Below, one piece after another: positions 20,965 through 53,692 of a stretch of 64,000 nucleotides of DNA. The notes beneath the pieces are model-generated. The model was not told the DNA's origin. It did no database searches and worked only from the letters and a program-made list of their open reading frames with translations. Each line of letters starts with the position of its first letter. Positions within the stretch are counted from its first letter, which is position 1. The stretch covers positions 62,001-126,000 of the forward strand of contig JAKMEE010000032.1 of NCBI GenBank assembly GCA_022426155.1, written 5' to 3'. The stretch is from Candidatus Poseidonia sp. (GTDB lineage Archaea; Thermoplasmatota; Poseidoniia; Poseidoniales; Poseidoniaceae). A program made the position numbers and the translations under genes.

Positions 20965-21912
20965 TCAGATTAATCCGATTTCCTTCAGTCGCTGATGCAA
21001 GAAATCACCTGCACTAATGCTCGAATAGAGGGCCTTGCCCCCTGTTTGAGCAATGTACTCGGGACGTGGTGTGAGGTCAATGTTATTTCGAGGATGAACG
21101 AACATTGGCATGGAATAGCGCCGTGATGATGCAACTGTTGGGTTGACGACTCGATGGGTGGTTGAACGGAACAACCCGTTCGTTAGATTCTGGAGCATAT
21201 CACCAGAATCCACGATGATTGAATTTTGGTCACCTTCGACTTTGATCCACGTTCCGTCATGGTCCATGACTTCCAATCCATCTGCGGTGGCCGTGACAAG
21301 GAGTGTGATGAAATTGATGTCTTCGTGGGCCGCAGAGCGAACGGCTCCTGCAGGCATGGTAGGGTTAAGCGGCGGATAGTGGATAAGTCGCATGATGGTG
21401 TTCCCATCAAGTGTCATTTCAGGGAGCCAATTCGCTGGTTTTCCAAGATAGAGGGAGCATGCTTCGAGCAATCGTTTTGACATTCGTTCCATGTTCGAAT
21501 ACAACGATTCAATCACGTTTTGAAATTCTGGTATCGATTCTGTTGGCCAAACATTTTCGGGATAGGTAGGTCGATCTCCGTTCTCAGGGTAAGGGCGCCC
21601 TGATTGCCAAAATTCCTTCAAATCGGGAGCAGGATTATCTTTAGCATGCTCGATACCAAATGCTGTATAGCCCCGTTGATGGGCAATCTCTGGGCGCAAA
21701 AAAATCCGTTTTTCTTTCTCAGTCATGTCAAAAAACGAATCGCATTGTTCGTAGGATTCATCGATGAGACTACGAGGGATGCCGTGATTGGTCAAGGCGA
21801 AAAAACCGATCTCCTTGAGGGAATTTCCCACTTGTTCTACGAACATTGCCCGTTCGTCGTCATCGTTAGAGAGGGCCAAACGATAATCCACGGTTGGGAT
21901 GGTTCGTGGCAT
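20965..21912 (-). CDS. 2OG-Fe(II) oxygenase, isopenicillin N synthase-like family
   Basis: DIOX_N-like IGFFALTNHGIP; Fe ligands HED and THRVVNP; SRRYSMPMF for 2OG. Confidence 0.9.
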   Translation of the reverse strand: MPRTIPTVDYRLALSNDDDERAMFVEQVGNSLKEIGFFALTNHGIPRSLIDESYEQCDSFFDMTEKEKRIFLRPEIAHQRGYTAFGIEHAKDNPAPDLKEFWQSGRPYPENGDRPTYPENVWPTESIPEFQNVIESLYSNMERMSKRLLEACSLYLGKPANWLPEMTLDGNTIMRLIHYPPLNPTMPAGAVRSAAHEDINFITLLVTATADGLEVMDHDGTWIKVEGDQNSIIVDSGDMLQNLTNGLFRSTTHRVVNPTVASSRRYSMPMFVHPRNNIDLTPRPEYIAQTGGKALYSSISAGDFLHQRLKEIGLI

Positions 21913-35008: not shown

Positions 35009-36700
35009 TCATTCAGATTCAGTAGGGTCTTCCCTGCCATCGGTAAATTCAGTAATGTGGTCGTATTGTTTCGCTTTTGAAATTTTTGAAACCCACAGGG
35101 CCCCACCGCCAAAGATTCCGACAGCTATCGCCCAAATTACGAGTGGCTTGTCTGGAATTTCATCTCCATACGACCATGTGACTGGCTCTGAAGTGACTCC
35201 ATTGGCATCGGTGACTGTTGATGCAACATCATTCAAAGCCAATGGGATAAAAGGTTTGCAAGTGAGACCTACATTCACAGCTTCATACATGTACCATGTG
35301 ATCGGGATAGTTTTCGTTTCTCCTGCTTCAAGTGAAGCCATGATGGTTGAAGGTGCTGTGTCGGCATCGAATTCACCGACATAGCAACGGAAGTTTGGGG
35401 TTGCAGCAACATCCCCGGTGTTGGTGACGGTCATCATCAATCCAAGACTTCGATTAACTTCAGCTCCAACATTCTCTGGTTCAAGGCTGACAACCTCAAT
35501 CAATGGGAATGGAACTTCCACTGTGGCAAATGGGACTCGAGGAGCATCAAACGTGGTCGAAAAGACACCCCAATTACTTGTAATGGAGAGGGTGATCGTA
35601 CCATTATCTTCGCCCAAATTCCCATTTCCATCCATCCATTCCACAATTCGCTTATGCTCGGTGGAACCCTTTCCATCCACCAAAACGATTTCACCGTTTT
35701 CATCCGTCAAATCATTCCAGTCTGCTTCGGCGTACCCGAGGTCATAGATGTCTAAACTACCGTTTGGAATGTTCGTGGTAAGGACCCGTTGAGATAGCAA
35801 TCGAATCCAAGCATCTGTGCTTCCTCCAGTCCCTTGGGAATTGAGGTAACTAATGCTTGCGTCATCATGCAAGATGATGTCTTCATCGCTACGTGATCCA
35901 CTAAGGATGGAATTAAGCACATCGAGTGAACCTGTAGCAGGGACATCAATCGGTGCACTACCTGTGAGTGTGGACCCACTTACGATGCAAGAACCTGGGC
36001 ATGAAATATTGGCTCCGTAAACATGCGCTTGTGAAAGGTCCATACTTCCTTCAACTATCACATCAAAAGCGGATTGAAACCAATAAAGTGGTGCGTTGAG
36101 GGTTTCAATTTGCTCTGCTTTGATGGTCTGGCTTGTGCCTCCATTGTAGATGGCCTTGGCCCACAAAACATAGCTCCCCATCGCCGAAGTAAAGCCTCCT
36201 GATTCAAAGGTGAACGCCAACTCAGTTCCGTCGAGTGAAACATCAAATTGAACCATATCGCTTCCTGATGCGTTGATTGTCTGGTTTTCATGAGTGATTA
36301 GCAAATGTCTCCCTTCAATGATTTCATGATCGAATTTCAACTGGACTACTCCTTCATCTGCGACATCACCGAAGTTCATCGAGATGGTGCTGTACCCAGG
36401 CCCAATAAGGAGGCCGGCGTTGAGGTCTTCATTGAGTAAAGCTCCATTCATAATACGTAATTCACCGCCTTGTTCAACGGTGATTGATGAACCAGTTTCC
36501 ATGGTAATGTTGGCAGAAACGGTGAGGCTTGTCCCGTTCAGAACAGTGTGATGTCCGTTCATTGTACCTTCTTCAGACCAGGTTTCATCTCCATTTGATG
36601 TTGTCGTCTCTCCACCAGCGGGTGGTGCGGCTGATGCAAGTGGCATCATCACCATGAGCAGGCAAAGAAAGAATGTGGCGCCATTTTGTGAGTTTCGCAT
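35009..36700 (-). CDS. Secreted surface protein with C-terminal TM anchor
   Basis: Signal peptide MRNSQNGATFFLCLLMVMMPLASA; many N-x-S/T sequons; TM VIWAIAVGIFGGGALWV. Confidence 0.75.
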   Translation of the reverse strand: MRNSQNGATFFLCLLMVMMPLASAAPPAGGETTTSNGDETWSEEGTMNGHHTVLNGTSLTVSANITMETGSSITVEQGGELRIMNGALLNEDLNAGLLIGPGYSTISMNFGDVADEGVVQLKFDHEIIEGRHLLITHENQTINASGSDMVQFDVSLDGTELAFTFESGGFTSAMGSYVLWAKAIYNGGTSQTIKAEQIETLNAPLYWFQSAFDVIVEGSMDLSQAHVYGANISCPGSCIVSGSTLTGSAPIDVPATGSLDVLNSILSGSRSDEDIILHDDASISYLNSQGTGGSTDAWIRLLSQRVLTTNIPNGSLDIYDLGYAEADWNDLTDENGEIVLVDGKGSTEHKRIVEWMDGNGNLGEDNGTITLSITSNWGVFSTTFDAPRVPFATVEVPFPLIEVVSLEPENVGAEVNRSLGLMMTVTNTGDVAATPNFRCYVGEFDADTAPSTIMASLEAGETKTIPITWYMYEAVNVGLTCKPFIPLALNDVASTVTDANGVTSEPVTWSYGDEIPDKPLVIWAIAVGIFGGGALWVSKISKAKQYDHITEFTDGREDPTESE

Positions 36701-36803
36701 GACGAGAAGGGTGGGGGGGCGTAGCAATAAGGCTTGGGCAGGGCGTCAATCCTCAGAAGTGTTTCGCGAAGGGCTTATTCATCTCCGCACATGGAGTCAC
36801 ATC

Positions 36804-38096
36804 ATGGAGGATGCAACGGTCTTGGTCATTGGCAGTGGCGGGCGAGAGCATGCACTCTGTTTAGCCTTGACCCAATCAACCCGTGTGGGTTCAATCCATT
36901 GTTCACCTGGGAACGCAGGAACCGCTTTACTGGGAGTTAATCATCGATTGGAGAATAACGCCACATCCACCATCATTTCACTCGCCAAGAAACTCAACAC
37001 GGACTTGATTGTCGTGGGCCCAGAGGCTCCTTTGTGTGAGGGACTCGCAGATGCTTGCGCTGAACAAGGGCTTGCGTGTTTTGGTCCTGTTGCAGCACTC
37101 GCCCATCTTGAGGGTTCAAAACTTCACGCCAAGCAAACCATGAGGGCTGCAGGCGTCCCTACCGCTGATTTCCAAACTCTTGATGAGGCATCGGATATTG
37201 AAGCTGCCTTGGATGCCTACGCAGGCCAGCCATGGGTGGTCAAGCGTAATGTATTGGCCGGAGGTAAAGGTGTGGTGGTTACCTCTGACAGAAGTGAGGC
37301 CAAAGATTTCATTGAATCTTCCATTGCTCTAGATGGGATGGTCCTTCTGGAAGCCTTCTTGCCTGGAGAAGAAGCCAGCATGTTGGTCATTATGGACGGG
37401 TCAAGTTACGTTTCACTTCCAGCCAGCCAAGATCACAAGCGAGCCTACGATGGTGACCAGGGGCCCAACACCGGTGGGATGGGCGCCTATTGCCCAGCCC
37501 CAATCGTGACTTCTGAAGTGAGTGAGAAAATACATCGGAGAATTCTCCAACCCATGCATGACCATTTGGCATCTCAACCAACTCCATACAGGGGTGTTCT
37601 CTTTGTGGGTTTGATGATTGATGAACACGATGATCCCTATGTTGTTGAATTCAATGTGCGATTCGGGGATCCCGAATGTCAAGTCACTCTCCCGCTCATC
37701 AAGACCGACCTCTATGAGATCCTTCATGGGGCGGCCAACGATCGATTGAAAGATGTCAAGGTCGACTTCCACCATGCTTCTGCATTGACGGTTGTTTTGG
37801 CCTCTGAAGGCTATCCTGCGTCTCCAATCAAGGGGAGAACCATCCAAGGTTTAGAGGCAGGTATGGGTCGGATGAATTACGGCTCCTCATGGATCAACAT
37901 TGCTGGTGTTTCAATGAGCGAGAAAGACACCTACATCGCTTCTGGGGGCCGCGTTCTTGCTTGCACAGGTTTAGCAACATCGCTCGGCGAAGCACATGAG
38001 ATTGCCTACGCTATTTTGTCAACGCTTGAACTTGAAGGTGGTCATTACCGAAAGGACATCGGATTCCGTGCCATCTCCGGCGCCAATGGTATTTGA
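36804..38096 (+). CDS. purD: Phosphoribosylamine--glycine ligase
   Basis: VLVIGSGGREHALCLAL, CSPGNAGT, VVGPEAPLCEGLAD, QDHKRAYDGDQGPNTGGMGAY; start trimmed to MEDATVLV. Confidence 0.94.
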   Translation: MEDATVLVIGSGGREHALCLALTQSTRVGSIHCSPGNAGTALLGVNHRLENNATSTIISLAKKLNTDLIVVGPEAPLCEGLADACAEQGLACFGPVAALAHLEGSKLHAKQTMRAAGVPTADFQTLDEASDIEAALDAYAGQPWVVKRNVLAGGKGVVVTSDRSEAKDFIESSIALDGMVLLEAFLPGEEASMLVIMDGSSYVSLPASQDHKRAYDGDQGPNTGGMGAYCPAPIVTSEVSEKIHRRILQPMHDHLASQPTPYRGVLFVGLMIDEHDDPYVVEFNVRFGDPECQVTLPLIKTDLYEILHGAANDRLKDVKVDFHHASALTVVLASEGYPASPIKGRTIQGLEAGMGRMNYGSSWINIAGVSMSEKDTYIASGGRVLACTGLATSLGEAHEIAYAILSTLELEGGHYRKDIGFRAISGANGI

Positions 38097-38238: not shown

Positions 38239-41200
38239 ATGAACAATGAAACCGATATGAAGGCAAAGCAGCCGAGTATCGCCATGGGTTGGCTCTTCGC
38301 CCCCTTGGCTGTACTCCTGTCACTCGCCGCCATAAAAATCGTAGGAATTGACTACGATTTCACATTGAATAACATGATGCCGATGATTGTCGTCGCCATC
38401 GCAAGCATGCTGGCCGTCGTGCCTCGCATGGTTTCAGACAACACCGATTTCAGTGCAACAAACATTTCCCTCGTTACGTTGCTCGTAGCTTTTGTCGGTG
38501 CGGAAGCCTTGCATTCATTCGCAAGCGTTGATGCATTAGCATGCTTGGTTTTTGCTCTGGTCGTCGTGCTTGGTTCAAGCCTTCACATGAAAGAGCGATA
38601 CGAATGGTTTGTCACGCTCACCTTCGGAGCTGTTGGATTATGGATGGCGCTGGCTGCAGCTGGCAATGCCTTCTCACTCCTGCCGACTGAGTTCACAATG
38701 GACGATGACCGCCTGGTCTCAACGCTGAACCTCAGCCGCCAAGCAACTGCCTATGTCTTCTTTGCCTACCTCACACTCTTTGTGATTCTCGGTCTTTTGG
38801 TCAGTGTCATGACACGTGGTGTTCTCTTTGCATCAGGCAAAGAAGGTTGGTTTTCGTACCTCGGAGAGTCCGATGGATTCAATCGAAAGGCCATGCCTTT
38901 GATGGTGGCATTAGCCGTTTGGGCCTTAGCGTTCATCGGTTCAATCTGGCACTTTAATTCTGTTGAGACTTTCAACCAACTTGGACTTACAAGCATGGAT
39001 GGATATCATGGATATGTTGGCTACTGGTCCTCGTTCTTGACCGGAATTGTCGCCCTTGTGGTAGCGGGAATGGTTGCAGAACGATGGCACACTCGAGCTA
39101 TGTTGACTGGTTCAATGTGGGCTCTTTACCTCGTCTCTTCATGGTACGAAGTTGGCCACTGGAGTGCAGAAGAACTTAACAATTCTTGGGGAGCATTCAT
39201 TTGGCTTGGAATTACGTTCTTTATGTGCGTTGCAATCTTCCAAATTTCCAACCATGACAAATATGGCGGATGGGCTAATCGTGGCGAACACGACCCTTCA
39301 GCAGCACGTCTTTTCTTGCGAAACCATGGTGCCGGAATGATGATTGCCATGGCATTCCTCATCGGTTTAGCCATTCGTATCCAGCACTACTCAGTGCCAT
39401 CCATGAACGCTCTTGGAACGAATCAATGGGATATGACTGGTGGTTCTGACCCTTGGTACATGAAGCGTGTCGTCGATTATATCTTGGCCAACAATGCGCA
39501 CTTGGTATACGACGCCGACCGATTCTACCCAATTGGTGGTATCAACCCTCGTCCACCGTTGTTTTCATGGTCAATGGCCATTGGAGCTATGATCCTGGAA
39601 CCCTTCGTTGGTGAAACCGATGCAGTCTGGTGGAGCATGCTTGGTCTTCCTGCAGTTTACGGTGCTTTGACCATCATCCCTATCGCATTCATTGCCCGGG
39701 ATCACTTCGGAAACGGTGCAGCAGTTCTTGCTGCTTGGCTCATCGCCTTCATGCCTGCTCACTTGACTCACTCGACATGGGGACTCGCCGACCACGACTC
39801 ATACGTGATGCTGTTCATCAGTCTTGGATTCATGTATTGGCTTCGTGCTGTCAAGTTCGCCGGTTCCTCGCGAATTACCAAGGACATCAAAGCCACACCT
39901 TCCTCTTTACTTCGCGCATTCCGTGACGTGTTCACACACCGCCAAACCGCAGTTTCTAACGCTGTACTTGCTGGTGTGACCTTTGGAATCGCTTCCTTGG
40001 GTTGGAAGGGATTCGTGGTTGGGCCATCGATTTTGTTCCTTGCCTATGCTTTGCAAGTTGCTTTGAACATGTTCCGTCGCCGTGACTCGACCAGTTTGAG
40101 TGTGATGTTCCTTACCATGATGACCGTGATTTTCCTCATGGCACTCCCATGGTACGGCCACCCTCAATTGGACTTGGTTCTCAATTCAACTGGATTGCAA
40201 CCATTCTTGTTCATCTTCGGATTTACCATCGCCATTACCTTCGTCACAACTGGATTCAGGGATAAGCCCTGGTTGCTCATGTTGGGCACATTGGCCTTTG
40301 CAGCGGTGATCTTCTTCGCACTCCTCTATGTGTTGAAGATTTTCGAACTCTCCAATGCTTGGGATGTTTTGTTCACTGGAAGTGGTTACTTCACTAAGAC
40401 CAAGATTTTCGGAACTGTTGCTGAAGCTAACCAAGTGAGGAACCGTGGGCAATTGTTCGCCTCGTTCGGACCAATCACCTTCGTGTTAGCACTCGTCATC
40501 GGTGCATCCCTTCTTTGGAAGGGATTGCGCAGTCGCGACCACACTTCCTTGGTGTTTGGTGTCTGGCTCTTTGCAGCCACCTTCATGGCTTGGAGAGCTG
40601 CTCGATTTATCTTCAATGCAGCACCAATCATGGCAATCCTAGGGGCCGTTGGAATCGGTGCTCTCTGGAAGTGGGCAAATTGGGAAGGTGTTGTTCGTGC
40701 TTGGAAGAAACACGGTATTCGAACACCATCGGACCGATTTGCAGGAGCTCGCAAGGCCGTTTGGCGCACACCTCAATTTTCAGCGATCTTCCTTGTGATG
40801 GTCATGTTGTTTAGTCAACAAGCAGCCTATGGATTGGATTCAGCCATCCCTTCAAACTCTCAAGCAGAGCCAGAATTGGATAAGAGAATCTATGACATCG
40901 TACCAGACATCCTCCGCTTTGATGGGCTTGGATTCTCTATCCTCGATAGTTCCGCCTACACGGGTAACAAATATCTTGGAAACTTTGGTTCCTCGTTTAA
41001 CGACCCAGGATGGAACAAGGCTTACGAATGGTTAGCAGACCAGGATACGGAAGATCCGTACTCACAGCGACCTGCCTTTGTGTCATGGTGGGACTATGGT
41101 TTCCAAGCCTTGAATACAGGTGCTCACCCCTCCGTTTCTGATAACTTCCAGTCTGGAATTCCGGCAACCGGAAACATGCTGTTAGCTCGCAATCAAGATG

Positions 41201-44200
41201 ATCTCACGGCCATGTTCATTTGGCAACTCGCTGAAGGTGACCGTGAATACAACACCCTACAAGGCGAATCAATTGGCTTCACTCTTCGTTTCGAGAACAT
41301 CATGTCATCCTACTTGACTGCACAACAAATGCAAGAATTCACCACAATGGAAACACAATTCGATGATAAAATGGTTGATTATATGACCGACCGGTCTTTT
41401 GTTGTCCAGAAGACCAACCGCAACATCGTCATGGCCGCAGGACATGACCAAACGGCTGGAATCTTTGATTTCAATAACGAAATCTACCGACTTTACAAAG
41501 ACGGAGAAGCCATCCTATGTACTGACGACCTTTCCTCCGAATGTGTTGGAGATGATTGGGGTAGCGAATCCGATGCGAACCTCACCTTTACTCAAAACAT
41601 CCGTTCAGGTGAAGAAACTGTTTCTGGCGCTACACATTACATCTTTGGAGAGTACTGGTACACAAGTGATTTGATTGAAGAATATCTCTCAGTTTCAACT
41701 TCCATCCACCGAAAGAACGCCCGTCTAGCTACGGTCACCCAATTGTTAACCAACGCCATGGAGGCCAATGAGGATGCAACCATCCACGACATGTACAACA
41801 GCCTCATCGGTATGGAAGCGTATTACAAGGTCCAAGACTTTGAAGGTGCACCAGGTGAAACGATTTCACGTGACCACGAAATTCGATACTTCGCTATTGA
41901 CGATCGACTTTACCCACGTGCAGGCCGTTACACGGCTGATCAAAATTACAACCGTGGACAACCAATGGGTATTTTCCAAGCTCCGACCATCCTATCAGGA
42001 CAAGATGTTAGCACATACATGGATGAAGTGTACGAAACCATCCGTGGCGAATTCAGTGATGAAATGACCCGGGAAGAAGTCGATGAAGCGATTCAAAAGG
42101 ATTTCTTGAACCAACAAGCTGGCGCAGAGATTGACCCTCTACAGGTTGAGGACGTGCGAGTGGATCACAATCCTGCATTCTTTGACACCATGGTCGCTCG
42201 TGCCTATGTCGGATACGGAGCATCTACGCTCGGGTTGGATACCGCTGGTTCAAACCCACAACCGTCTCAACACTTCGGCGTCTCAGGTACACCAGGTAGT
42301 ATCTTAGCCAATGCATATCCATTGCCGGGTGCTATGATGAACCACTTCGTGATCGCTAATTGGTACGACACCGATGAATCGATCGGTATCACTTCGAACC
42401 CTTCCATCACTTCGGTGAAGATTTTGAAGTATTACGCTGGTGCTGAACTCACAGGTCAAGTTACGATGGGTGACAACGGCGAAGGCCTGCCAGGAGTACG
42501 CCTCCTCATTGAGCGAGACGCCTTCTCTGGAGAAGATAGCGAAGACCTTGACGCAGATACTTACTGGGTGCCAATTGGTTTCGTTGATGCAGATGAAAAT
42601 GGACATTATTCCTACACTGTTCCTGCAGGACGCATCCGTGTCTCTGCCTTCGCAGGTGATTACGATCCAACACTTGCTCGTGACCAAATTCGCGATGGGT
42701 CATACGCTCAATCCTTGGGTGATTTGTTGACCAGTGATTCAGAAGACCGCCAAGTTAACCAGTTGACTGCGATTCTTGGCCAAGTGGCCAACATGACGTG
42801 GCTCGGAGACGCTGAACTCAACGTGACTGGTGCACAAGGCAACAGAGAAGCAACGATCGACTCGCCTTTGGATCTTCCAATTGAGAGCAGTGGTGTGTCA
42901 GGAACTGTGGCTTGGTCCGGAGATGAAATGTTCAACGGAGACCCAATTTCAGAAACCACCTTTATCCTTCGAAACATTTGGTCCATGACCGATAACTACT
43001 CCGTTGTAACCACAAGTGGTTCATTCACAAGCGAAGAAAGCCGGATTTTACAGGGAACAGGCCAAGCGACCTTCTCCGAAAATGGAACCTTTGAGAGCGA
43101 TGGCATGGCTATCGCCCGTGATTTCATTGGAGATTTCGTTCGAGACATTGGAAATGATCGCAAGTATTTCGGCAACGGAACATGGGCTGGTATTGGTTCT
43201 ATTGAAGCTTCATGGATTGAGCCAACCGATGTGGCAAGTTGTGAATTTGATAACGATTCAGTTGCTATTATGCCAGATAATGAAACCGTCTGTCTTTCTG
43301 ACGATACAGGTGTTTTGTCAGTGTACAAACTTGAGGGCAGTGTCAATGCGACAGGAACCTTCACTTCGATCGGGACCTCGACATTGACCCGTTCATACGG
43401 TGACTTTGATGCTGGTATTGGTTCCACAATTGAGGGCGCGGGTTCGTTCTCTGGTATCGGTACCTTCAACGGAACAGGATTGTTCATCGGAGCCGGAGAG
43501 TTCTCTGGTCCAATGGTTGAGCCAGGTTCTTTCTACAAGACAGGTCTTCTCCCGGGAACATACAACATGATTGCGCAACTTGACAATGGAAAGGAAGTCT
43601 TGCTTCCTGATCCCGTGGAAATTGGCGTTACTCCAAGTTACGACTTGGACATGACCCTTCCAGCAGCTGTTTTCCGAGATGTTCTCAAAGACATGGACGA
43701 TGAATTACTCCCCAATCAAACCATTGAATTGATTGATTTGGCACTTGGTGAAGAAAACATGATTTTGATTGAGACTGACGAAAACGCAAGTTTCAGTCAT
43801 GGGCCTATGCCAAAGGGTGACTATTATCTCCGAATTGATTTGGATCAGGATGGCTGGTATGACATGAACGAAAGCATCATCGTTAACGATGACACCAATA
43901 ACGTGACCTTACCTTATGGTGTTCCTGCAACGGTTGACGTCACATTGAACCTTGTTTCACCTGTTGACCCACTTACACAGGAGCCTCTCTTTGAGGTTGC
44001 AAACCGTCTCATCACTTTTGCGAACACTGCCGGTATGCTTGACCCTGTGAACGCGACATCGGATGAGAATGGAACTGTGTATGTTGAATTGCTTTACGGT
44101 GTTTATGATATTCGCGACGATATCAATCCAGAATTCGTGATGTTTGACCAAATCGAACTTGACTTCGGTTCAGAAGACATGACACGAAACGTCACCTATG

Positions 44201-47200
44201 CACAAGCTGTATACTTGAACGGTACCATCCGTGCATACCAAGGTGACATGAACGATTACGAAACATGGCTTGAAGAAACGCCTGAAGAGAACTTGATTGA
44301 GACCAGCGCTCCTGCATCAGGAACTGCTGTAACATTCCGGTCAGGTGTGCTGAATTTCGAAGAAGTCACCAATACCTCTGGATTCTACAGTGTTCGTGTG
44401 CCTTCCGGCTTTGATTACCACATGACCACAGAAAGTGGCTTTGGAAGCATGGTCGGTGGACAACTCGTCACTGCTTCAGAGACGGGTGAGATGGACCTCG
44501 GTACCATGTACCTCGAACCAGCCAGTATCGTTAGTGGCGTGATTTACCTTTACGACAACAGCACGCGATGGGATAACAACATTCCTCGCTGGGTTGAACC
44601 AGAGATTTTGGCTGTGAACGAAGAAGGATTAGAATGGAGAACAACAGCGTCTGAAATTGGTGAATTCAACTTGAATTTGTTTGATGGTGTTTGGGATATT
44701 TCGGTTATTGATGAGCGCCTCAACATCACCGGTTTCGATGATGTGATTGTGAATGACACCCTTACTGACGAGTTGTCTTTGCTCGAATTTACTGCTAATC
44801 CTTCAAGCATTGATGTGACCCTCTGGGTGTTCATTAACTCTGCAGAGGATGCAACGTTTGAGAACGGAACAAAGGTCTCTCCAGACCTCTATCTCGAACC
44901 TGCAGATGACAACCGGGAGCCAATTTACTTCACCAGTGATGATTACTCAAGTCTTGGTGTTCTCGATGTTGCTTTGACTCCAGGATCCTATGCCTTGAAA
45001 TTTAACAGAACAACTGCAGAAAGTGAAAATGCTACGGATTATGATTTGATTGGTGAGATCTTCTTTGAGGACATCTACATCGCTCTCGACGGCCCTGAAG
45101 AACCACTTCCTGTACCACTTCGTGAAACTTACTTGGTGACTGGCGTTTTGGAGAACTCAACCCAGGATGGAATTATGAACGAATTCCTACTTTACAACGA
45201 ATCAACCGATACATGGTTCAACATGGGGTCTGATGAAAACGGAAGTTTCGCAGCCTATGTTCCAGCAGGTGAATGGTTGATCATTGTCGCACCCTACACC
45301 AATAATGAGGTGATGGAAACATTGCGAACAACCTTGACCGTGAGTGAAAATGCTTCGGCTCGATCGAACCTCTCGTTGGAAACTGTGGCGAGCGTGGAAG
45401 TTTCGTTCCAATTGAAGGAAGAGCTTACCGAAAATCCGCTGATGGACATGAACGTGATCGCTATCAGCAATGATGGTTATGGAAATGTGACATTTGGAAA
45501 TACAAACGCAGATGGAAACACCAGTAAAATGCTCATGCCTGGATCTTGGAGTTTGTATATGAATCGATCCATTGGTACTCAAACTTGGATGCTGAACGGA
45601 TCAGACAATCCGTTTAATGCCGCTAACAGCACGTTGGATTTGGGCGTAGTGTACGCAGCACTTGAAGTTCAAATCGGTGGGAAGGTGTATTGGGACCTTG
45701 ATAATAACAGCGTCCCAGATTCAAGCGAAGGAATTCCTGACGTGAATGTGACCATCATTGGTAATAGCACTGCAGTCAACACGACTGTCGTGACAGATAG
45801 TGAAGGTGTATGGCGAGTCTTCGTCCCAATCCGTGATGTTTACAATGTAACTGTTGAAAAGGAAGGGTTCGAGACTGTTTACTACGCTACAGAGAACCAA
45901 TCTGGTTACACGGTTCTCGACAGCCCAGATTCAACAGATATCAAGGTGGTTGCTGGTGCAGTTCAAGCATCTGGTTCGATCACAGATTCCGTTGATTCAT
46001 CCCGTCTAGAAGGGGCGTCAATTACGCTCTATCCACGGGCAGGAGTTGCAAGGGAACCAATTTCAATGGTCGGAGTCATGAATAATGGCAGCCTTGAATG
46101 GGATGCTATGATTCAACCAGGTGATTGGATTGTTATTGTTGCTGATGCAAACCCCGATGAAAACGGTGGAGGGGTGGCTATTGGTCTCCTTGATGCAAGC
46201 GTTGCAAACGGTGGCGAGGTGAACATGACCATGACACGAGCAGGGTTCGTACACTTGAGCACTGAATGGATGGACATTACCGCAGGATTGCACCATGTGG
46301 GTTCAGATGATGATGGATATGATGCCATCACTGCACCTGTTGAAATCGAAGTGACCTTTGATGGAATGACCTGGATGATGCCTATGCCTGCAGACGGTGT
46401 TCTGAGCTTGCTCATGCCGCAAGGAAACGTAGCCTTTGACAGTGAATTTACAACCATACAAACCGCAGATGATTTGGAAATGGTGTACTTTGGTGGCCAA
46501 TCCGTGACAATTACAAACGATGAAACTCTCGACCTCAAACTCGATTATAACCGACGAGTGAATTCCGATGTCATTCAAACCTTCGTGGTTGAATCACTTG
46601 GGACATCAGCTGAATTAATCAATGCAGAAAGCATTGAATTTATGGCAAAGGTTTCACCAACCAACGAGTCGGTGTATCAAGTGATTGATTTCGATGTGGA
46701 TGTGACCTACAATGGAACAGAAGCAGAGGATATTTTCACAGTCACGGCCGAAATGGGTTTGGCGCAAGATTCTGATCTATGGGTTGTTGAAGTTTTGAAC
46801 TCAAGCAGTGGAGAATACGAAGAAATGACCATGTTGACCCTTGGAATTGGCGCTGCTAACTCCAATGAAACAGTAGATCGCACCGCAACTTTGTCGGTGA
46901 GGGTAACATTACCATCTGTTGAAGATGCTTGGCATCTTGATGATGGTCATAGAATCACAATCCGAATGGTAACTGAACTGGGTGAATCCAGTCAGTTCAC
47001 AATGAAGGTTGTCGTTCCGCAAAATCATGGCTTTAGCATCGCTGAGGCCACTGAAGTCTTGGGCATTTCACCTCTAGTTCAACGTCAGTTCTCCTTTGAA
47101 GTAACCAACGAGGGTAACGGACGTGACACTTTCAGGATCGAAGTGTTAGAAAGCCCTATCCCTGTGAATTGGTCGGTGACTCCAATGGATTCGAATCTTA

Positions 47201-47790
47201 CACTAGCGAAAGGAGAAACACGTAATCAACCATTCACTGTGTTTGCACCTGCTGAATTTGTTGAAGGAAGCATACTTTTGACGGTTGACATTACTTCCGT
47301 GAGCGGTACACAGTCTGAACAGGTCAAAGTTACCATCAAGGCTGCTCGCATCGCACTTGAGGTGGAGACTGGAGATATTCAAACCGAGTCTGATGACGTT
47401 GCAGGTGAACCTGGACGTGTGATTATCCCAGTTTCGAACAACGGTGAATTGGATGCCAATGATGTGATTGTCTATCTGACACTTCCTAACGGCACAGAAA
47501 TGCAACAAACTGTATCGGTTCCAGCGAACAGTCAAACCTTCGCAGTGTTTGAAGACATTGAGCAGAATCAAGGTAATCAGCGATTTGAATTACGAGTCGA
47601 GGTTGCTGGTGAAGATGCTCCATACGTTGAAAGCAATGTTTACGAAAGCGATTGGAGCCTCGAATACCGTGTGGTAAGTTCGGGTGAAGGAGATTCACCA
47701 TGGCTTTCCGTTCTGATCTTGGTACTGATTGTCTTAGTGGCCTACGGTGGTGTTCGTACTGCACGAAGCCGCGGCGGAACAAAGTTCTGA
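38239..47790 (+). CDS. aglB: Giant oligosaccharyltransferase (STT3/AglB) fused to a very long extracellular beta-domain repeat region with C-terminal TM
   Basis: Multi-TM N-terminus with SDPWYMKRVVDY (DxD-like), ADHDSY, and WWDYG (about residue 950), then over 2000 aa of carboxypeptidase-regulatory/CNA-B-like and CARDB-like repeats, ending in TM SPWLSVLILVLIVLVAYGG. Confidence 0.9.
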   Translation: MNNETDMKAKQPSIAMGWLFAPLAVLLSLAAIKIVGIDYDFTLNNMMPMIVVAIASMLAVVPRMVSDNTDFSATNISLVTLLVAFVGAEALHSFASVDALACLVFALVVVLGSSLHMKERYEWFVTLTFGAVGLWMALAAAGNAFSLLPTEFTMDDDRLVSTLNLSRQATAYVFFAYLTLFVILGLLVSVMTRGVLFASGKEGWFSYLGESDGFNRKAMPLMVALAVWALAFIGSIWHFNSVETFNQLGLTSMDGYHGYVGYWSSFLTGIVALVVAGMVAERWHTRAMLTGSMWALYLVSSWYEVGHWSAEELNNSWGAFIWLGITFFMCVAIFQISNHDKYGGWANRGEHDPSAARLFLRNHGAGMMIAMAFLIGLAIRIQHYSVPSMNALGTNQWDMTGGSDPWYMKRVVDYILANNAHLVYDADRFYPIGGINPRPPLFSWSMAIGAMILEPFVGETDAVWWSMLGLPAVYGALTIIPIAFIARDHFGNGAAVLAAWLIAFMPAHLTHSTWGLADHDSYVMLFISLGFMYWLRAVKFAGSSRITKDIKATPSSLLRAFRDVFTHRQTAVSNAVLAGVTFGIASLGWKGFVVGPSILFLAYALQVALNMFRRRDSTSLSVMFLTMMTVIFLMALPWYGHPQLDLVLNSTGLQPFLFIFGFTIAITFVTTGFRDKPWLLMLGTLAFAAVIFFALLYVLKIFELSNAWDVLFTGSGYFTKTKIFGTVAEANQVRNRGQLFASFGPITFVLALVIGASLLWKGLRSRDHTSLVFGVWLFAATFMAWRAARFIFNAAPIMAILGAVGIGALWKWANWEGVVRAWKKHGIRTPSDRFAGARKAVWRTPQFSAIFLVMVMLFSQQAAYGLDSAIPSNSQAEPELDKRIYDIVPDILRFDGLGFSILDSSAYTGNKYLGNFGSSFNDPGWNKAYEWLADQDTEDPYSQRPAFVSWWDYGFQALNTGAHPSVSDNFQSGIPATGNMLLARNQDDLTAMFIWQLAEGDREYNTLQGESIGFTLRFENIMSSYLTAQQMQEFTTMETQFDDKMVDYMTDRSFVVQKTNRNIVMAAGHDQTAGIFDFNNEIYRLYKDGEAILCTDDLSSECVGDDWGSESDANLTFTQNIRSGEETVSGATHYIFGEYWYTSDLIEEYLSVSTSIHRKNARLATVTQLLTNAMEANEDATIHDMYNSLIGMEAYYKVQDFEGAPGETISRDHEIRYFAIDDRLYPRAGRYTADQNYNRGQPMGIFQAPTILSGQDVSTYMDEVYETIRGEFSDEMTREEVDEAIQKDFLNQQAGAEIDPLQVEDVRVDHNPAFFDTMVARAYVGYGASTLGLDTAGSNPQPSQHFGVSGTPGSILANAYPLPGAMMNHFVIANWYDTDESIGITSNPSITSVKILKYYAGAELTGQVTMGDNGEGLPGVRLLIERDAFSGEDSEDLDADTYWVPIGFVDADENGHYSYTVPAGRIRVSAFAGDYDPTLARDQIRDGSYAQSLGDLLTSDSEDRQVNQLTAILGQVANMTWLGDAELNVTGAQGNREATIDSPLDLPIESSGVSGTVAWSGDEMFNGDPISETTFILRNIWSMTDNYSVVTTSGSFTSEESRILQGTGQATFSENGTFESDGMAIARDFIGDFVRDIGNDRKYFGNGTWAGIGSIEASWIEPTDVASCEFDNDSVAIMPDNETVCLSDDTGVLSVYKLEGSVNATGTFTSIGTSTLTRSYGDFDAGIGSTIEGAGSFSGIGTFNGTGLFIGAGEFSGPMVEPGSFYKTGLLPGTYNMIAQLDNGKEVLLPDPVEIGVTPSYDLDMTLPAAVFRDVLKDMDDELLPNQTIELIDLALGEENMILIETDENASFSHGPMPKGDYYLRIDLDQDGWYDMNESIIVNDDTNNVTLPYGVPATVDVTLNLVSPVDPLTQEPLFEVANRLITFANTAGMLDPVNATSDENGTVYVELLYGVYDIRDDINPEFVMFDQIELDFGSEDMTRNVTYAQAVYLNGTIRAYQGDMNDYETWLEETPEENLIETSAPASGTAVTFRSGVLNFEEVTNTSGFYSVRVPSGFDYHMTTESGFGSMVGGQLVTASETGEMDLGTMYLEPASIVSGVIYLYDNSTRWDNNIPRWVEPEILAVNEEGLEWRTTASEIGEFNLNLFDGVWDISVIDERLNITGFDDVIVNDTLTDELSLLEFTANPSSIDVTLWVFINSAEDATFENGTKVSPDLYLEPADDNREPIYFTSDDYSSLGVLDVALTPGSYALKFNRTTAESENATDYDLIGEIFFEDIYIALDGPEEPLPVPLRETYLVTGVLENSTQDGIMNEFLLYNESTDTWFNMGSDENGSFAAYVPAGEWLIIVAPYTNNEVMETLRTTLTVSENASARSNLSLETVASVEVSFQLKEELTENPLMDMNVIAISNDGYGNVTFGNTNADGNTSKMLMPGSWSLYMNRSIGTQTWMLNGSDNPFNAANSTLDLGVVYAALEVQIGGKVYWDLDNNSVPDSSEGIPDVNVTIIGNSTAVNTTVVTDSEGVWRVFVPIRDVYNVTVEKEGFETVYYATENQSGYTVLDSPDSTDIKVVAGAVQASGSITDSVDSSRLEGASITLYPRAGVAREPISMVGVMNNGSLEWDAMIQPGDWIVIVADANPDENGGGVAIGLLDASVANGGEVNMTMTRAGFVHLSTEWMDITAGLHHVGSDDDGYDAITAPVEIEVTFDGMTWMMPMPADGVLSLLMPQGNVAFDSEFTTIQTADDLEMVYFGGQSVTITNDETLDLKLDYNRRVNSDVIQTFVVESLGTSAELINAESIEFMAKVSPTNESVYQVIDFDVDVTYNGTEAEDIFTVTAEMGLAQDSDLWVVEVLNSSSGEYEEMTMLTLGIGAANSNETVDRTATLSVRVTLPSVEDAWHLDDGHRITIRMVTELGESSQFTMKVVVPQNHGFSIAEATEVLGISPLVQRQFSFEVTNEGNGRDTFRIEVLESPIPVNWSVTPMDSNLTLAKGETRNQPFTVFAPAEFVEGSILLTVDITSVSGTQSEQVKVTIKAARIALEVETGDIQTESDDVAGEPGRVIIPVSNNGELDANDVIVYLTLPNGTEMQQTVSVPANSQTFAVFEDIEQNQGNQRFELRVEVAGEDAPYVESNVYESDWSLEYRVVSSGEGDSPWLSVLILVLIVLVAYGGVRTARSRGGTKF

Positions 47791-47857: not shown

Positions 47858-49075
47858 ATGGATGAACTGCGGAACGTGGAGTACCTCCCCGAACCCAACG
47901 ACCGCAGTATCGTTTCAGCTATTGACCCGGCCGTTGTCGGACACCAAGACGGTTATCGTTCACAGGTAACCGGGTGGGCTCCGAGGATTGCCATGCCCAT
48001 GGTGCGACATCGTCGTAGATTTCCAATTGGCAACGCAGTTGCGTTGGCTGTGCTGATCTCAGTTGGAATGTTTCTCTGGCAATCACAATTACTGGTTATT
48101 CAATTACCATTGCCTGATTCAGAATGGGCGTACGATGCCACGAACATCCGTGAAATGCAGGAAGATGGTTTGACTGGAGATGGAATCAGAGTCTGCATGG
48201 TGGACACAGGACTTGACGCTGAACACGAGGCTTTTGCTGGCAGTGATATCGTCTTCCATGACTTGGTTGGAAATTCTGCTACTCCCAAAGAATATGGCGC
48301 TATTGCTCATGGTACTCTGATGGCAGGAATTCTTGTTGCCGATGCACACCAACTTGGTGCAGCGCCCAATGTGACATTGGGAATGGTAGCTGCTCTTTCT
48401 GACGACGGAATGGGGGAAAATACTGGAGATGAATCTGTTGTTGGTGATGCAATTCGTTGGTGTCAGTTTCAATTCCAGGCAGATATTATTTCTCTCTCAC
48501 TCGGAGGCGCTCCGTCGATGAGCATGGACCGTGAAGGCAATTCTGCTTCCGCAACTCGTCAAGCGACAGATTCAGGAATTTACGTCATCGCTGCAGCTGG
48601 AAACGACGGTGGAGTTGATGATGATGGGGATGTGTCGAGTCCTGGAAACGTACCACGGGCAATCTCGGTTGGTGCAGTGACCAAAGATGGTACTGTATGG
48701 GAGAATTCATCAAGGGGCTCTCAAACATTAGCGAACGGAGATCAGCGTCAGTCTCCCCACCTGAAGCCCGAGGTGGTCGCACCTGGACATCAAATTATCA
48801 GCACTGGTCAATCTGGCACTTGGTACTCCAGTAGTGGGACATCGGATTCTACTGTGTTCGTAACAGGGGCTCTTTCATTGATCTTAGAGGCTAACCCACA
48901 TTTACGGGCGAGTGTTCAAGAAAACGGGAACTGCATCGATGCAGTCAAACAGGCGTTGGCAGATTCAAGCCAACCTCTCTTGGATGGGAAAGTTCACGAT
49001 GATCGTTGGGGATATGGCTCTCTGGATACAATCGCTTGGGCAGAAGAAGTCGGAAAAATCACCAGTTGTGGTTGA
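47858..49075 (+). CDS. Membrane-anchored subtilisin-like serine protease (S8)
   Basis: VCMVDTGLD (Asp), AHGTLMAGIL (His), SSSGTSDSTVFVTGALSLIL (Ser); N-terminal TM after a cytoplasmic segment. Confidence 0.9.
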   Translation: MDELRNVEYLPEPNDRSIVSAIDPAVVGHQDGYRSQVTGWAPRIAMPMVRHRRRFPIGNAVALAVLISVGMFLWQSQLLVIQLPLPDSEWAYDATNIREMQEDGLTGDGIRVCMVDTGLDAEHEAFAGSDIVFHDLVGNSATPKEYGAIAHGTLMAGILVADAHQLGAAPNVTLGMVAALSDDGMGENTGDESVVGDAIRWCQFQFQADIISLSLGGAPSMSMDREGNSASATRQATDSGIYVIAAAGNDGGVDDDGDVSSPGNVPRAISVGAVTKDGTVWENSSRGSQTLANGDQRQSPHLKPEVVAPGHQIISTGQSGTWYSSSGTSDSTVFVTGALSLILEANPHLRASVQENGNCIDAVKQALADSSQPLLDGKVHDDRWGYGSLDTIAWAEEVGKITSCG

Positions 49076-49271
49076 GTAATTCCACATCTCTCTTCCTTTC
49101 GAGCAAGGATCTCGCCCGAAATATTACCGCTCTCTGTCGTTTTCAGCCGAAAAAACCGTCAAAATTCGGCGAAAAGTTTGATATTATTGGGGGCAAATGA
49201 TACTTTAAAGCCCACAAATGAGGCGCAGTATTATATTTAGGTCGTTCATGGACAGGGTAGGTGTGCCCACT

Positions 49272-52200
49272 ATGTCTAGAGAAATGCGAATGAAAAGTAT
49301 CACCATCGTCACTCTGTTTTTATTGTCGTCGATGATAGGATTAATTCAATTGCCAACAGCATCAGCTGTGAATGAAACTACCAAAGGTACCATTTCGGGT
49401 ATTGAGACCTGGTCTGGCACCATGAATCTGGCAGGTGACGTTGAAGTAGCGGAAGGAGCCCTGCTGATTGTCAATGCAGGGACAACCATCAACATCCCTT
49501 TCGGTAATTTCATTGATGTCAAGGGCGCTATCTGTGTCGGTGATAGTGCCTGTGGTGCAAGCGCTGGTTCATCATCGAGTAAGGCTCGGTTTGTGTGGAG
49601 TGTGCCGTCAGATTATACACCCACGGGCCGTTGTTACAGCAATTCTTCGACTTTACTCAACAACGGTGATACAGCCTGTGGGTCGGGCATGGTCATTCGC
49701 AGTACGATTGATCAATCCATTACATCTCTCAATTATGCCCACTTCGAAAACACATACGGATACCCCATCTATGTGGCAACCTTGCAACAGGTCCAATACG
49801 GAGCGCTTGTGTTTGATGGTTCATCCACCAATGCCAAGGGACTTTCGTTCACTGATATCAATACTTCAAACATCTTAGCGATTGATTTTGCATCTCCAAT
49901 CATTTCTGAATCCGAATTCACTCTCGGTATTGATGGGCGAGGGTACGATGCTGCAGCCGTTCGGGCCTACAGTGCCGGGGCTGGTATTCTATCGACCTTT
50001 ACCGTGAAAGATTCAGAATTCACTGGTGCCGATGCCGATTGTGGCACACAAGGCGGTGGCCGTGCAGTCGTTTACATTGAAGACAGTTACATCGACATGG
50101 ACAACATTGACATTTCTCAAAATTCCTATGGAATCCTGCTGAAAAGTAGTTCTGGTTCACTCACGAATTCTGAAATTGATGTTAAGTGCAACGCAATCGA
50201 CACCAATTCACTCAAGACGACTGGCAGCATTGAACACGTTCTCACTGTCTCTAACAACCTCATTACCACTGCAGAAGGGGCTGGCCTCACTGCGTACGAC
50301 GGAGCAAATGTCTATGCAGATGGCAACACACTTTCCGGTGCTACAGAAGGGTCCGGTGTTGGTATTCGTTCATCAACGGTTGAATTACATCGCAATACCA
50401 TTGGACCGATTGGTGGTTGGAACGGAATCTGGATTTACGGTACATCAGATGTTGTTGCAGAAAACAACACCATTCAGGACACTGGCAAAGAACCGGTCCT
50501 GATTGGAGAGTACCACTTCCAAGACCAAGGATGGCAAGTACCTGCTCCAACAGCTGCTCGAATCTATCTGGCAAACAACAACATTTCAGGCAATACAGGT
50601 ACCTGCAATTCTCAGATGTATGGCGGTGATTTCCCATGTCCCGCAGTTCACGTCTTCATGTCCTCTGCTACAATTTTGGACAACACCATCTCTGGAAACG
50701 GTGGAGACATCATTAGAGCCAAGGGTTCGCTTGTCAATGTCCAACGGAACACAGCGGATTCCAACTTTGGATACGCAGGAAACATTTCCATGTATGACGA
50801 TAATTACGGGAACAAATACGGATCCATCGCTTACTTCTCGGGAAATACTTGGACCGGTGTCTCACAAGTTTACAACGTAACAGAATCCCGTCTCACCGTT
50901 CAATCAGAACAGATTCCATCACCTGGCAATGGTGAACTTTACCCTGTCAGTATCAGTTGGGAAGGTGCAGAATGCCCTTACGTTCAAGATGAATGCTTGC
51001 AAATTCCAGACACTGTTGTTCTTCCTCCAGCACAAATGCCATTGGCTTTAGAGTTGGTCGACAACGCCACAGTGTTCTCCTATGCTGACCTACAAAACTT
51101 TGATTCAAGCATGATTCACGTGCAAAACCAAAACACTGCTTGGGGCTCTCAAGTTCGTGAAGGTGAACTCGTCCGATACCAAGTGAAAGCAAAGAACAGC
51201 AACGTTGCTGGAGCGACAGTCATCATCAGGGATGCCACTGGTTTGCCATTGTATGAATTGACCACCGATGCCTTTGGATTCACTCAGCAAGTTTCCCTGC
51301 CCTCTGACTTCTTGCTCGATCGCAACTGGAATCACCAAGTTGGTGACAAGAATGCTGCAATTCCTGGCTCTGGAGTTCCACCCGTCCTGGTTGACGAAGA
51401 TTCCTGCGCAGATGGAATTGACAACGACGGAGACACCATGGTTGATGGTGATGATTCTGATTGTCTTAACGGCCGTGAAATGCCTTTCTATACCGTTGAG
51501 GCCTTCAAATTCGGCATGGGTGCGAAGGATTTCTCCTTTGTGCTTTCAGGTCCAATCGATGAAGTCATCAATCTTGAAAACCTCCGTCCGAGCGTGAGTG
51601 TCAATCAGCAAGATGGGGTCTCGTTTGCAACCACAGTGTCCATCAATGGGCAAGCCTGGGACGGCGTCAAGTGGCCCTATGCCAACGACATTACTGCCTA
51701 CAACAAGCAATTCGGGACCATTCAAGATGTTGAAATTCAACCTCCCGGTTCCAATGATTGGTATTCAGCATCGGACACCTCCGGCTCAAATGGAGATGTG
51801 ACCATGGAAAACCACCCATTCAAGGATTGGGCATTTGATTGGGACATGTCTGCTCACCCAGCCGGTGAAGGTGATGTTACGTTCCGCATTCGCTCCTATG
51901 ACGGATTAGATTACTCACCCGTTGAGGTTCGACAATACAAACTCAATTTAGTTCCACCAACCACCTATGTTGACATCCCTAACACAGGAACCACACACAC
52001 CACTGGTAAGGTGATGTTCCAAGGGTCTGCGACCGATCCGTATTCAGGAACTTATGGTAGCGATATTCAAGCAATATGGTTCCATGTTTCCGGTGATACA
52101 AACGGCGATGAAGTCTTTGATGATTATGTCTCTCACTTCTACACAGAAGGTTCCACCACTTGGTCCTACCAGTGGGATTTCTCAGAACTACCATCCGGTG

Positions 52201-53666
52201 AGTACCATTTCGAAATCTGGGCAGCAGACAGCGATTTCTGCAAGGATGATCGAGGAATTTGTGTGGCCGAAGAACGAACGTTGACTATTGTCAACGAAAA
52301 CACACCACCTCAACTGCAAGTGAGTTGGATTGGCTCTCCAGACATGATGGAAGGTGGTACGGATATGGCTACTATTCGCGCATCTGAAGACACAGTTATC
52401 ATGGGGTATGCCAACGATATCGGTGGTCAAGTTACTCGTGTTGAAATCGACATCTTTGACCTTGCTAGTGGATCTGCTTTACCAATGAACAACGGACCTT
52501 TGCCGGTGACGTCTTTCAACCCTGACAAGACTTGGAGTGCTATTTGGGATACATCTGACCTCGTTCATGACCAACAATACGATGTTGCAGTTCGCGCCTA
52601 TGACGGAGAAGATTACTCGCAAACTATCGAATACCGGGTGATTATCAACAATCCACTCAATGCTGACAACATCAATCCTTTGTTCAACGATACTGGATGG
52701 GTTGGTACTATCACCATCTTCTGTGATGCACAATCTTCCTCCATCAACCGATGTGGCGATGGAGCAATGGTTGATTTGACCGCTTTCTTCTATGACCCCG
52801 ATGGCATCGGAACACCTGCGGAATCTCTTGTCTTTGACATCTGGGATGATGAAACAACTCTCCAAGATGACGCCTATTCTCAATACATCCGTATCACTGC
52901 TGATGGAAAGGCAATCTACAACCCGATGGATGCGCGAGCCGCCAGTACCAGTGAAATTTCAGAGTGGTCCCTTGATGGAGTCATGTTTGAAGCTCGAGAT
53001 ATTCACGAATCGAAGGTTTACTCCCTCAAGGTCAATTTCCTTGTTCGAGCGGTTTCATTCACTGCTGAGCGTATCAACTCTGGAGTTGTAACGGTCGATA
53101 ATCCAGCGTCATTCCAGGGTGAAGGATTGCCCGGAAGTTTGGTGAATGCACGCTTCGCAAATGGAGATGCTAAGATCAACTCCACACGTGTCCTTTCAGA
53201 TGGAACGTGGACCATGGACCTCACCAGCAGTCAGTTGGATGAAATTGGTGAGTTTGGAATCATCTTTGAAATGGATGGTCAAGTATTCGAGTTCATTGGA
53301 GAAAATGGACAACCGAATGGCAAAGATGGTGTCTTCAGTGTAACCGTTTCTTCGGGAGATGAAAAGGATTCATCAATGCTCACAATCATACTCGTTGTTG
53401 CTGGCTTGATTGCAGTTCTTGCAGTCGGGGCCTTCTTCTTCGTAGAGTTCGAAGAATTTGATGATGAAGAAGGGGATTTTGATGTAGAGAATCAGCCAGA
53501 AGAAGATCCCTATGCATGGGCAAAGGCAAAGCAAACGCCTGCAATTCCTCAACAGGAAGCAGCAGTACCGGATGCAGCAGCTCCTGCGGCAACACATCCA
53601 GGCTGGTTGTGGGATGAAGCTACCAACCAGTGGGTCCCCGATCCAAACTATTCACCTGAACAGTGA
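49272..53666 (+). CDS. Giant surface protein: parallel beta-helix N-terminal region, Ig-like repeats, C-terminal TM and cytoplasmic tail
   Basis: Signal peptide; right-handed beta-helix-like N/D-rich repeats (NNLITTAEGAGLTAYDGANVYADGNTLSG...); TM LTIILVVAGLIAVLAVGAFFFV; tail GWLWDEATNQWVPDPNY. Confidence 0.85.
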   Translation: MSREMRMKSITIVTLFLLSSMIGLIQLPTASAVNETTKGTISGIETWSGTMNLAGDVEVAEGALLIVNAGTTINIPFGNFIDVKGAICVGDSACGASAGSSSSKARFVWSVPSDYTPTGRCYSNSSTLLNNGDTACGSGMVIRSTIDQSITSLNYAHFENTYGYPIYVATLQQVQYGALVFDGSSTNAKGLSFTDINTSNILAIDFASPIISESEFTLGIDGRGYDAAAVRAYSAGAGILSTFTVKDSEFTGADADCGTQGGGRAVVYIEDSYIDMDNIDISQNSYGILLKSSSGSLTNSEIDVKCNAIDTNSLKTTGSIEHVLTVSNNLITTAEGAGLTAYDGANVYADGNTLSGATEGSGVGIRSSTVELHRNTIGPIGGWNGIWIYGTSDVVAENNTIQDTGKEPVLIGEYHFQDQGWQVPAPTAARIYLANNNISGNTGTCNSQMYGGDFPCPAVHVFMSSATILDNTISGNGGDIIRAKGSLVNVQRNTADSNFGYAGNISMYDDNYGNKYGSIAYFSGNTWTGVSQVYNVTESRLTVQSEQIPSPGNGELYPVSISWEGAECPYVQDECLQIPDTVVLPPAQMPLALELVDNATVFSYADLQNFDSSMIHVQNQNTAWGSQVREGELVRYQVKAKNSNVAGATVIIRDATGLPLYELTTDAFGFTQQVSLPSDFLLDRNWNHQVGDKNAAIPGSGVPPVLVDEDSCADGIDNDGDTMVDGDDSDCLNGREMPFYTVEAFKFGMGAKDFSFVLSGPIDEVINLENLRPSVSVNQQDGVSFATTVSINGQAWDGVKWPYANDITAYNKQFGTIQDVEIQPPGSNDWYSASDTSGSNGDVTMENHPFKDWAFDWDMSAHPAGEGDVTFRIRSYDGLDYSPVEVRQYKLNLVPPTTYVDIPNTGTTHTTGKVMFQGSATDPYSGTYGSDIQAIWFHVSGDTNGDEVFDDYVSHFYTEGSTTWSYQWDFSELPSGEYHFEIWAADSDFCKDDRGICVAEERTLTIVNENTPPQLQVSWIGSPDMMEGGTDMATIRASEDTVIMGYANDIGGQVTRVEIDIFDLASGSALPMNNGPLPVTSFNPDKTWSAIWDTSDLVHDQQYDVAVRAYDGEDYSQTIEYRVIINNPLNADNINPLFNDTGWVGTITIFCDAQSSSINRCGDGAMVDLTAFFYDPDGIGTPAESLVFDIWDDETTLQDDAYSQYIRITADGKAIYNPMDARAASTSEISEWSLDGVMFEARDIHESKVYSLKVNFLVRAVSFTAERINSGVVTVDNPASFQGEGLPGSLVNARFANGDAKINSTRVLSDGTWTMDLTSSQLDEIGEFGIIFEMDGQVFEFIGENGQPNGKDGVFSVTVSSGDEKDSSMLTIILVVAGLIAVLAVGAFFFVEFEEFDDEEGDFDVENQPEEDPYAWAKAKQTPAIPQQEAAVPDAAAPAATHPGWLWDEATNQWVPDPNYSPEQ

Positions 53667-53692
53667 ACCATTCATTCGAAGGTTGTGTTCAG

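Follow-up and report, generated by a model that had tools for sequence, protein, structure and literature searches.

The window, i.e. the whole 64,000-nucleotide stretch of the Candidatus Poseidonia sp. contig that was analysed, contains one uninterrupted frame on the forward strand (38239-47790, ATG start) encoding a giant protein of 3183 residues of oligosaccharyltransferase (OST) type, flanked by conserved neighbours. The features of the region, with the segments of the giant protein given separately, are the following:

36654..38096 (+): purD (TIGR00877, E 6e-135), the upstream neighbour in the whole order
38239..39318 (+): residues 1-360, extra N-terminal membrane module with 10 modelled transmembrane (TM) helices, before the STT3 domain
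39319..40848 (+): residues 361-870, STT3/AglB transmembrane domain with D404, D518/D520, E729 and RF (R789), from PF02516, TIGR04154 and 3waj alignments
40849..42420 (+): residues 871-1394, divergent AglB catalytic C-terminal domain with WWDYG, IRYFAxDxRLYP and TGIFYAP-type motifs
42421..43818 (+): residues 1395-1860, conserved beta-sandwich segment adjoining the core
43819..47058 (+): residues 1861-2940, variable prealbumin/CarboxypepD_reg-like array, dense in N-X-S/T sequons
47059..47688 (+): residues 2941-3150, NEW3/choice-of-anchor T/CARDB-type Ig-like domain
47698..47760 (+): residues about 3154-3174, C-terminal TM anchor by hydropathy and sequence, followed by the basic tail ARSRGGTKF
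47858..49075 (+): membrane-anchored subtilisin-like protease (PF00082, E 3.5e-34) with one predicted TM, type II
49218..53666 (+): secreted beta-helix/Ig surface protein with a C-terminal TM (PF13229, E 3.7e-11), the conserved next neighbour

The nearest solved structures, as found by PDB sequence comparison, are those of the archaeal AglB (3waj/5gmy), and a 20-member profile of the OST matched AglB with E 6.3e-18 and eukaryotic STT3 chains as well. The Pfam STT3 domain (PF02516) was detected at residues 403-802 (E 2.4e-13, 50.8 bits vs a cut-off of 24.5) and in 20 out of 20 orthologues, while the NCBIfam model archaeo_STT3 (TIGR04154, archaeosortase A-associated OST) covers residues 367-988 with E 4.5e-51, its score of 174.2 bits being below the curated cut-off of 450. 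SDPWYMKR is found at 403-410, ADHDSY at 517-522, TVAE at 726-729 and WWDYG at 950-954. The acidic DXD-type residues D404 (GGSDPWY) and D518/D520 (ADHD) and the TIXE-type glutamate E729 (TVAE) are, together with other motif residues, invariant or near-invariant across the 20 orthologues, and WWDYG is invariant. An earlier note on this DNA had placed the STT3/AglB signature in the N-terminal part of the protein; SDPWYMKR, ADHDSY and WWDYG are indeed there, but the first 360 residues form an extra membrane module. The AglB_core-like domain PF22627 was recognised at E <= 0.01 in 16 out of 20 orthologues and stays below the curated cut-off in the window protein, where a canonical DK (DxxKxxx[M/I]) or MI (MxxIxxx[I/V/W]) pocket motif was not found. 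Since no canonical pocket motif was found and both TIGR04154 and AglB_core are sub-threshold, we regard the catalytic domain as divergent. Where the short paralogues carry a GK stretch after the RY...D segment, the long type has (T)GIFYAP (GIF-APxxL), a correspondence between short motifs aligned by eye; this sequence would possibly fit the Ile-type Ser/Thr pocket described for other OSTs (PMC3703281). The genome contains no other STT3 that we could find, and the OST is the sole STT3 in nearly all Poseidoniales relatives too. The window protein is best explained as the single-copy AglB-type OST of Poseidoniales, and it would be catalytically active.

The fusion of an OST with a long array of repeats, as claimed in the earlier note, is real, and it is more general than was then thought. 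The OST was matched in 58 out of 59 related genomes that represent ~15 genera in two families, and where complete its frame is mostly 3,100-3,320 residues long, so that same-length orthologous frames in about 15 genera and two families make chance an insufficient explanation. Among 80 loci with named records, 50 are intact and longer than 3,100 residues, 25 run into a contig end and 5 appear short, i.e. 50 out of the 55 loci with both ends inside the contig have a single frame. All 5 short frames break at runs of N, and the rest of the protein resumes beyond each; in a one-contig genome (G060) the frame is broken at a 15-base N run, and in a single-cell genome it is intact (3189 residues). No relative was seen with the OST and the arm as two separate genes among the orthologue loci examined, a split arrangement that the earlier note had named as evidence against the fusion. 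An assembly or frameshift artefact joining two genes, the other objection foreseen in the earlier note, has only the size of the ORF in its favour and can be dismissed with near certainty, as the same length recurs in many independent assemblies and in the single-cell genome, no frame is broken elsewhere than at a run of N, and the GC content is continuous throughout the ORF (0.43-0.52). In a record titled Deltaproteobacteria (AH-558-G13, locus L085) both the OST and the gene order around it are those of Poseidoniales; it is probably a mixed or mislabelled assembly.

A peculiar part of the protein is the N-terminal membrane module. Its AF2 model, based on 32 sequences, has a mean pLDDT of 79.5 and a pTM of 0.79, and has 10 long helices ahead of the first one of the OST; since this number is even, the orientation of the STT3 domain is kept, and there is weak agreement of the modelled loops with the positive-inside rule. 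Neither Pfam nor the PDB sequences gave a match to the module, and no PDB fold matched it (best Foldseek E 0.39). Of the 34 Poseidoniales genomes sampled 33 contain it, as opposed to 0 of 111 other Thermoplasmatota, and it lies nearly always within the same long frame as the OST (shorter frames occur on fragmented assemblies). It is an apparently undescribed membrane module that is strictly tied to an OST. In one genome a second, partial copy lies on another contig (G032:C20:4846-5472, a 214-residue frame), which may represent a strain variant or a free-standing copy, or be due to a contig end. The idea that the module is a duplicate of the OST transmembrane region was rejected for want of an hhalign signal. 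Two other Thermoplasmatota families (L176 and L180) have a different multi-TM extension before STT3, comprising the N-terminal 250 residues or so. Kinship of the module to these was likewise rejected, as hhalign gave no signal in a comparison with only two sequences, and the extensions are perhaps independent gains.

Outside Poseidoniales the long type is the rule rather than the exception. A PF02516 search of 243 Thermoplasmatota genomes gave matches in 202, and the OST frames outside Poseidoniales are about 1,160-2,744 residues long in most families (a few have 910-1,050), those of the other order of the same class being about 2,340-2,375. The statement that known AglB proteins have 800-1000 residues is valid for the studied AglBs, but not as a rule for Thermoplasmatota. 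CarboxypepD_reg was found in the post-catalytic part of 23 out of 23 phylum representatives. By an iterated HMM most long members have 7-13 tandem arm units. The number is lower in the shorter OSTs and in Poseidoniales, whose array has diverged; no unit was detected in L181, L194 and L195, which are canonical short paralogues, and L195 matches the AglB_core and AglB_L1 domains instead. The long OSTs usually end with a C-terminal membrane anchor. A quick tree of the OST core places the long type in a clade (26 rows, SH-aLRT 98) of which one branch (L171, L177 and L187) became shorter again later. Poseidoniales and the other order of the class, whose OST is also long, are sister groups in this tree. 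As the long type is phylum-wide and forms a clade, we conclude that the arm is old in the phylum and that Poseidoniales lengthened it and added the N-terminal module. The other Thermoplasmatota OSTs (L172-L193) are of the same subtype, with a CarboxypepD_reg array, enrichment in sequons and, in most long ones, a C-terminal TM; they differ from those of Poseidoniales in being shorter, in lacking the N-terminal module and most of the 1395-1860 elaboration, and in having different gene neighbours. In the L184 protein extra TM helices, apparently an insertion, separate WWDYG from the usual last OST helices, and the motif lies at 826 despite a normal start. One genome (G231) has two OST types on different contigs, a canonical short one of 926 residues (L181) and a short-armed one of 1291 (L182). 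A phage origin of the OST was rejected, as tblastn gave no match in phage records. AglB has been reported in Thermoplasmatales (PMC3750248, PMC5155288), and our literature search, which did not extend to subscription papers, found no published description of the long architecture, nor biochemical or glycoproteomic work on any member.

The arm itself is uneven in its conservation. In 56 orthologues the modal frequency is 0.55-0.77 at residues 1201-1800 vs 0.64-0.76 at 361-1020, and it falls to 0.40-0.56 in most of residues 1801-3120. The near arm (1231-1800) is thus conserved about like the catalytic core, and for this reason we do not consider it a passive tail. Its first prealbumin-like domain (KYYxGAxxxGxV, starting near 1395) is conserved in the phylum-wide consensus, and G-x-G-x-F beta repeats are found near 1733-1757. 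A model of residues 985-1860 (pLDDT 75.1, pTM 0.44) is rich in beta-sandwiches, and Foldseek matches it best to CNA-B pilins, for example BcpA (E 1.5e-6). PF13620 CarboxypepD_reg is found at residues 2495-2550 (E 1.1e-10, 42.2 bits vs a cut-off of 32.3) and in 32 out of 32 orthologues; up to 5 such units are present in the window protein, 3 of them weak, and there are weak matches to SdrD_B, NOMO1-like (detected in 18 of the 32 orthologues) and FixG_C/NPCBM_assoc. The carboxypeptidase-regulatory and the CNA-B-like modules proposed earlier agree with these matches, and the extracellular repeat arm with a final anchor, a single TM at about 3155-3172, is supported. The segment previously called CARDB-like is better named NEW3/choice-of-anchor T, which matches at residues 2916-3030, as CARDB is significant in only 6 out of 32 orthologues. 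With its two ends tied to the membrane, the arm probably forms an arch and not a freely projecting surface filament.

A substantial enrichment was detected in N-X-S/T sequons, the target motif of the enzyme. Residues 1231-3150 contain 49 sequons as opposed to 18.4+-3.7 in shuffles (z 8.3), and the OST core (361-1230) has 2, which is at or below expectation. In the pooled 56 orthologues the ratio of forward to reversed motifs is 3.0 in residues 1801-2480 and 2.15 in 2481-2940, compared to 0.98 in the STT3 transmembrane part and 0.21 in 870-1230, and the columns in which at least 50% of the sequences carry the motif number 23 for the sequon vs 5 for the reversed motif. The same tendency holds across most of the phylum (L176: 99 sequons vs 24.0 expected, z 17.5; L193: 55 vs 14.0), being weak in L198, L188, L192 and L178. 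The adjacent beta-helix surface protein (1482 residues) is unenriched (11 vs 14.3 expected), so the enrichment is not a mere property of exported proteins, and the view that the arm is an ordinary trait of all surface proteins was rejected. Elsewhere in the window (22722-27617, minus strand), a 1631-residue protein with six lamin-tail domains and PLD-like nuclease/phospholipase domains is mildly enriched (29 vs 18.7 expected). The sequons mark likely acceptor sites; their enrichment suggests that the arm is itself an acceptor, and it looks like a selected acceptor of its own fused enzyme, though modification by the very same molecule does not follow from this pattern.

The most likely explanation of these features is an OST with a built-in, self-glycosylated ectodomain that is anchored at both ends and serves as a shield or docking platform, and we consider the chances that this is correct to be about even. 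The protein would represent a Thermoplasmatota-wide long-arm subtype in which the catalytic STT3 core lies outside the cell and its C-terminus runs covalently into the conserved beta-sandwich segment and then into the sequon-rich prealbumin-like array, the latter returning to the membrane via the C-terminal anchor, so as to form an arch tied at both ends, over or beside the active site. Most likely the arm is N-glycosylated by the enzyme that carries it, which would give a rigid, sugar-coated canopy around the active site. Such a canopy might protect the complex as well as hold or space incoming secreted acceptors, and the covalent fusion would do the job of the extra lumenal subunits of the eukaryotic OST. 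A putative role of the enzyme as a scaffold for acceptors or for S-layer parts, as suggested in the earlier note, is possible.

The gene neighbourhood bears on a different explanation. The order and strand of purD, OST, subtilase and surface protein are fixed in both Poseidoniales families wherever the contig reaches, and this set was not found beside the OST in the retrieved flanks of other orders. The subtilase starts 67 nt downstream of the OST, and because of this short gap the two may be co-transcribed; its catalytic domain is predicted to be external, and it might process the arm or its substrates. One could thus imagine a polyprotein, in which OST and arm are made as one chain and are separated after export, perhaps by the subtilase, so as to leave an anchored surface glycoprotein. 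The position and predicted topology of the protease agree with this, as does the arm's own TM anchor, but a segment as conserved as residues 1231-1800 is not expected of a disposable linker, and no such subtilase was matched in the retrieved flanks of long-arm OSTs elsewhere in the phylum, so we consider separation of the two parts unlikely. Further downstream, the gene of an 851-residue protein with a Crp-type HTH, an AAA/STAND ATPase and TPR repeats (53663-56218, plus strand) has a GTG start that overlaps the stop of the beta-helix gene, and an Isopenicillin-N-synthase-type 2OG-Fe(II) oxygenase (DIOX_N and 2OG-FeII_Oxy) is encoded in this archaeal genome at 20965-21912 (minus strand). As to other glycosylation genes, the genome has 11 GT2 glycosyltransferases and one flippase-family protein, which speaks for the OST with a self-glycosylated arm; an AglH-type PF00953 protein was not found in this 89%-complete MAG, which speaks against it. 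A metatranscriptome study reported that oligosaccharyltransferase transcripts are up when the MGII (Poseidoniales) genus O1 is active (PMC9723583).

Another explanation starts from the resemblance of the arm to surface structures. The CNA-B/SpaA-type pilins of Gram-positive bacteria (BcpA, EbpC) have tandem prealbumin-like beta-sandwich shafts, to which the model of the near arm is similar, but these pilins are sortase-polymerised and are not fused to an enzyme. The arm could be mainly a surface coat or stalk (a pseudo S-layer or an adhesive arm) whose tie to the OST guarantees its glycosylation, without any role in catalysis or in the choice of acceptors. The pilin-like arrays, the density of sequons and the lower conservation of the distal array (1861-2940), which is as in surface proteins, would all fit, and several Thermoplasmatales have no S-layer (PMC5155288). 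On the other hand, one arm per enzyme molecule would make a poor coat unless the OST is very abundant, and a passive coat would not be expected to be as conserved as the near arm is; we think it improbable that the arm is chiefly a coat, to much the same degree as its release by proteolysis.

It is interesting to compare the giant protein with NOMO, a member of the BOS complex in the eukaryotic multipass translocon. Both have a long prealbumin-like array on the exterior or lumenal side, and NOMO has a single C-terminal TM. Published work assigns NOMO at least 12 prealbumin-like domains (PMC11186639), and the BOS complex takes the place of the OST at the translocon (PMC9630114). The difference is that NOMO is a separate subunit that is not fused to the OST. 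Pfam NOMO models match some arms of the phylum (NOMO_5th has its best E, 1.7e-19, in some members), while for the window protein they are sub-threshold, its profile matches NOMO only with E 0.077, and phmmer gave no match to NOMO chains in PDB. On these grounds we do not claim direct homology between the arm and NOMO, and retain only a parallel at the superfamily level, which is suggestive. Still less probable than the above alternatives, and in our opinion quite doubtful, is that the OST of Thermoplasmatota, fused to a NOMO-like array, has a double function at the Sec translocon, being the catalytic subunit and also a spacer on the exterior side, with the Poseidoniales 10-helix module docking the translocon or the lipid donor. 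If this were true, Archaea would have, in one covalent chain, an equivalent of the eukaryotic secretory translocon with its several subunits.

Returning to the OST with a self-glycosylated ectodomain, the closest studied enzyme is AglB-L of A. fulgidus (3waj/5gmy). The two share the multi-TM STT3 domain, the DXD-type residues, the TVAE/TIXE-type glutamate and WWDYG, and both are single-subunit enzymes. The differences are conspicuous. Firstly, AfAglB-L has 868 residues (PMC3703281), as opposed to 3183 in the window protein. Secondly, the latter has an unrelated N-terminal membrane module, no canonical DK motif and no match to the AglB_L1 peripheral domain. Thirdly, it carries a prealbumin-like arm of about 1,800 residues with a C-terminal TM. 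The giant OST is thus a new form within a known enzyme family, for which the proposed mechanism is plausible.

Textbooks set the archaeal OSTs, with their single subunit, against the multi-subunit enzyme of eukaryotes, and Marine Group II (Poseidoniales) are among the most abundant archaeal groups of the surface oceans. The present results show that in a large part of an archaeal phylum, Marine Group II included, the main OST contains a giant ectodomain rich in the very motif that the enzyme targets. It thus becomes possible to ask whether an OST uses a covalent, self-glycosylated scaffold.
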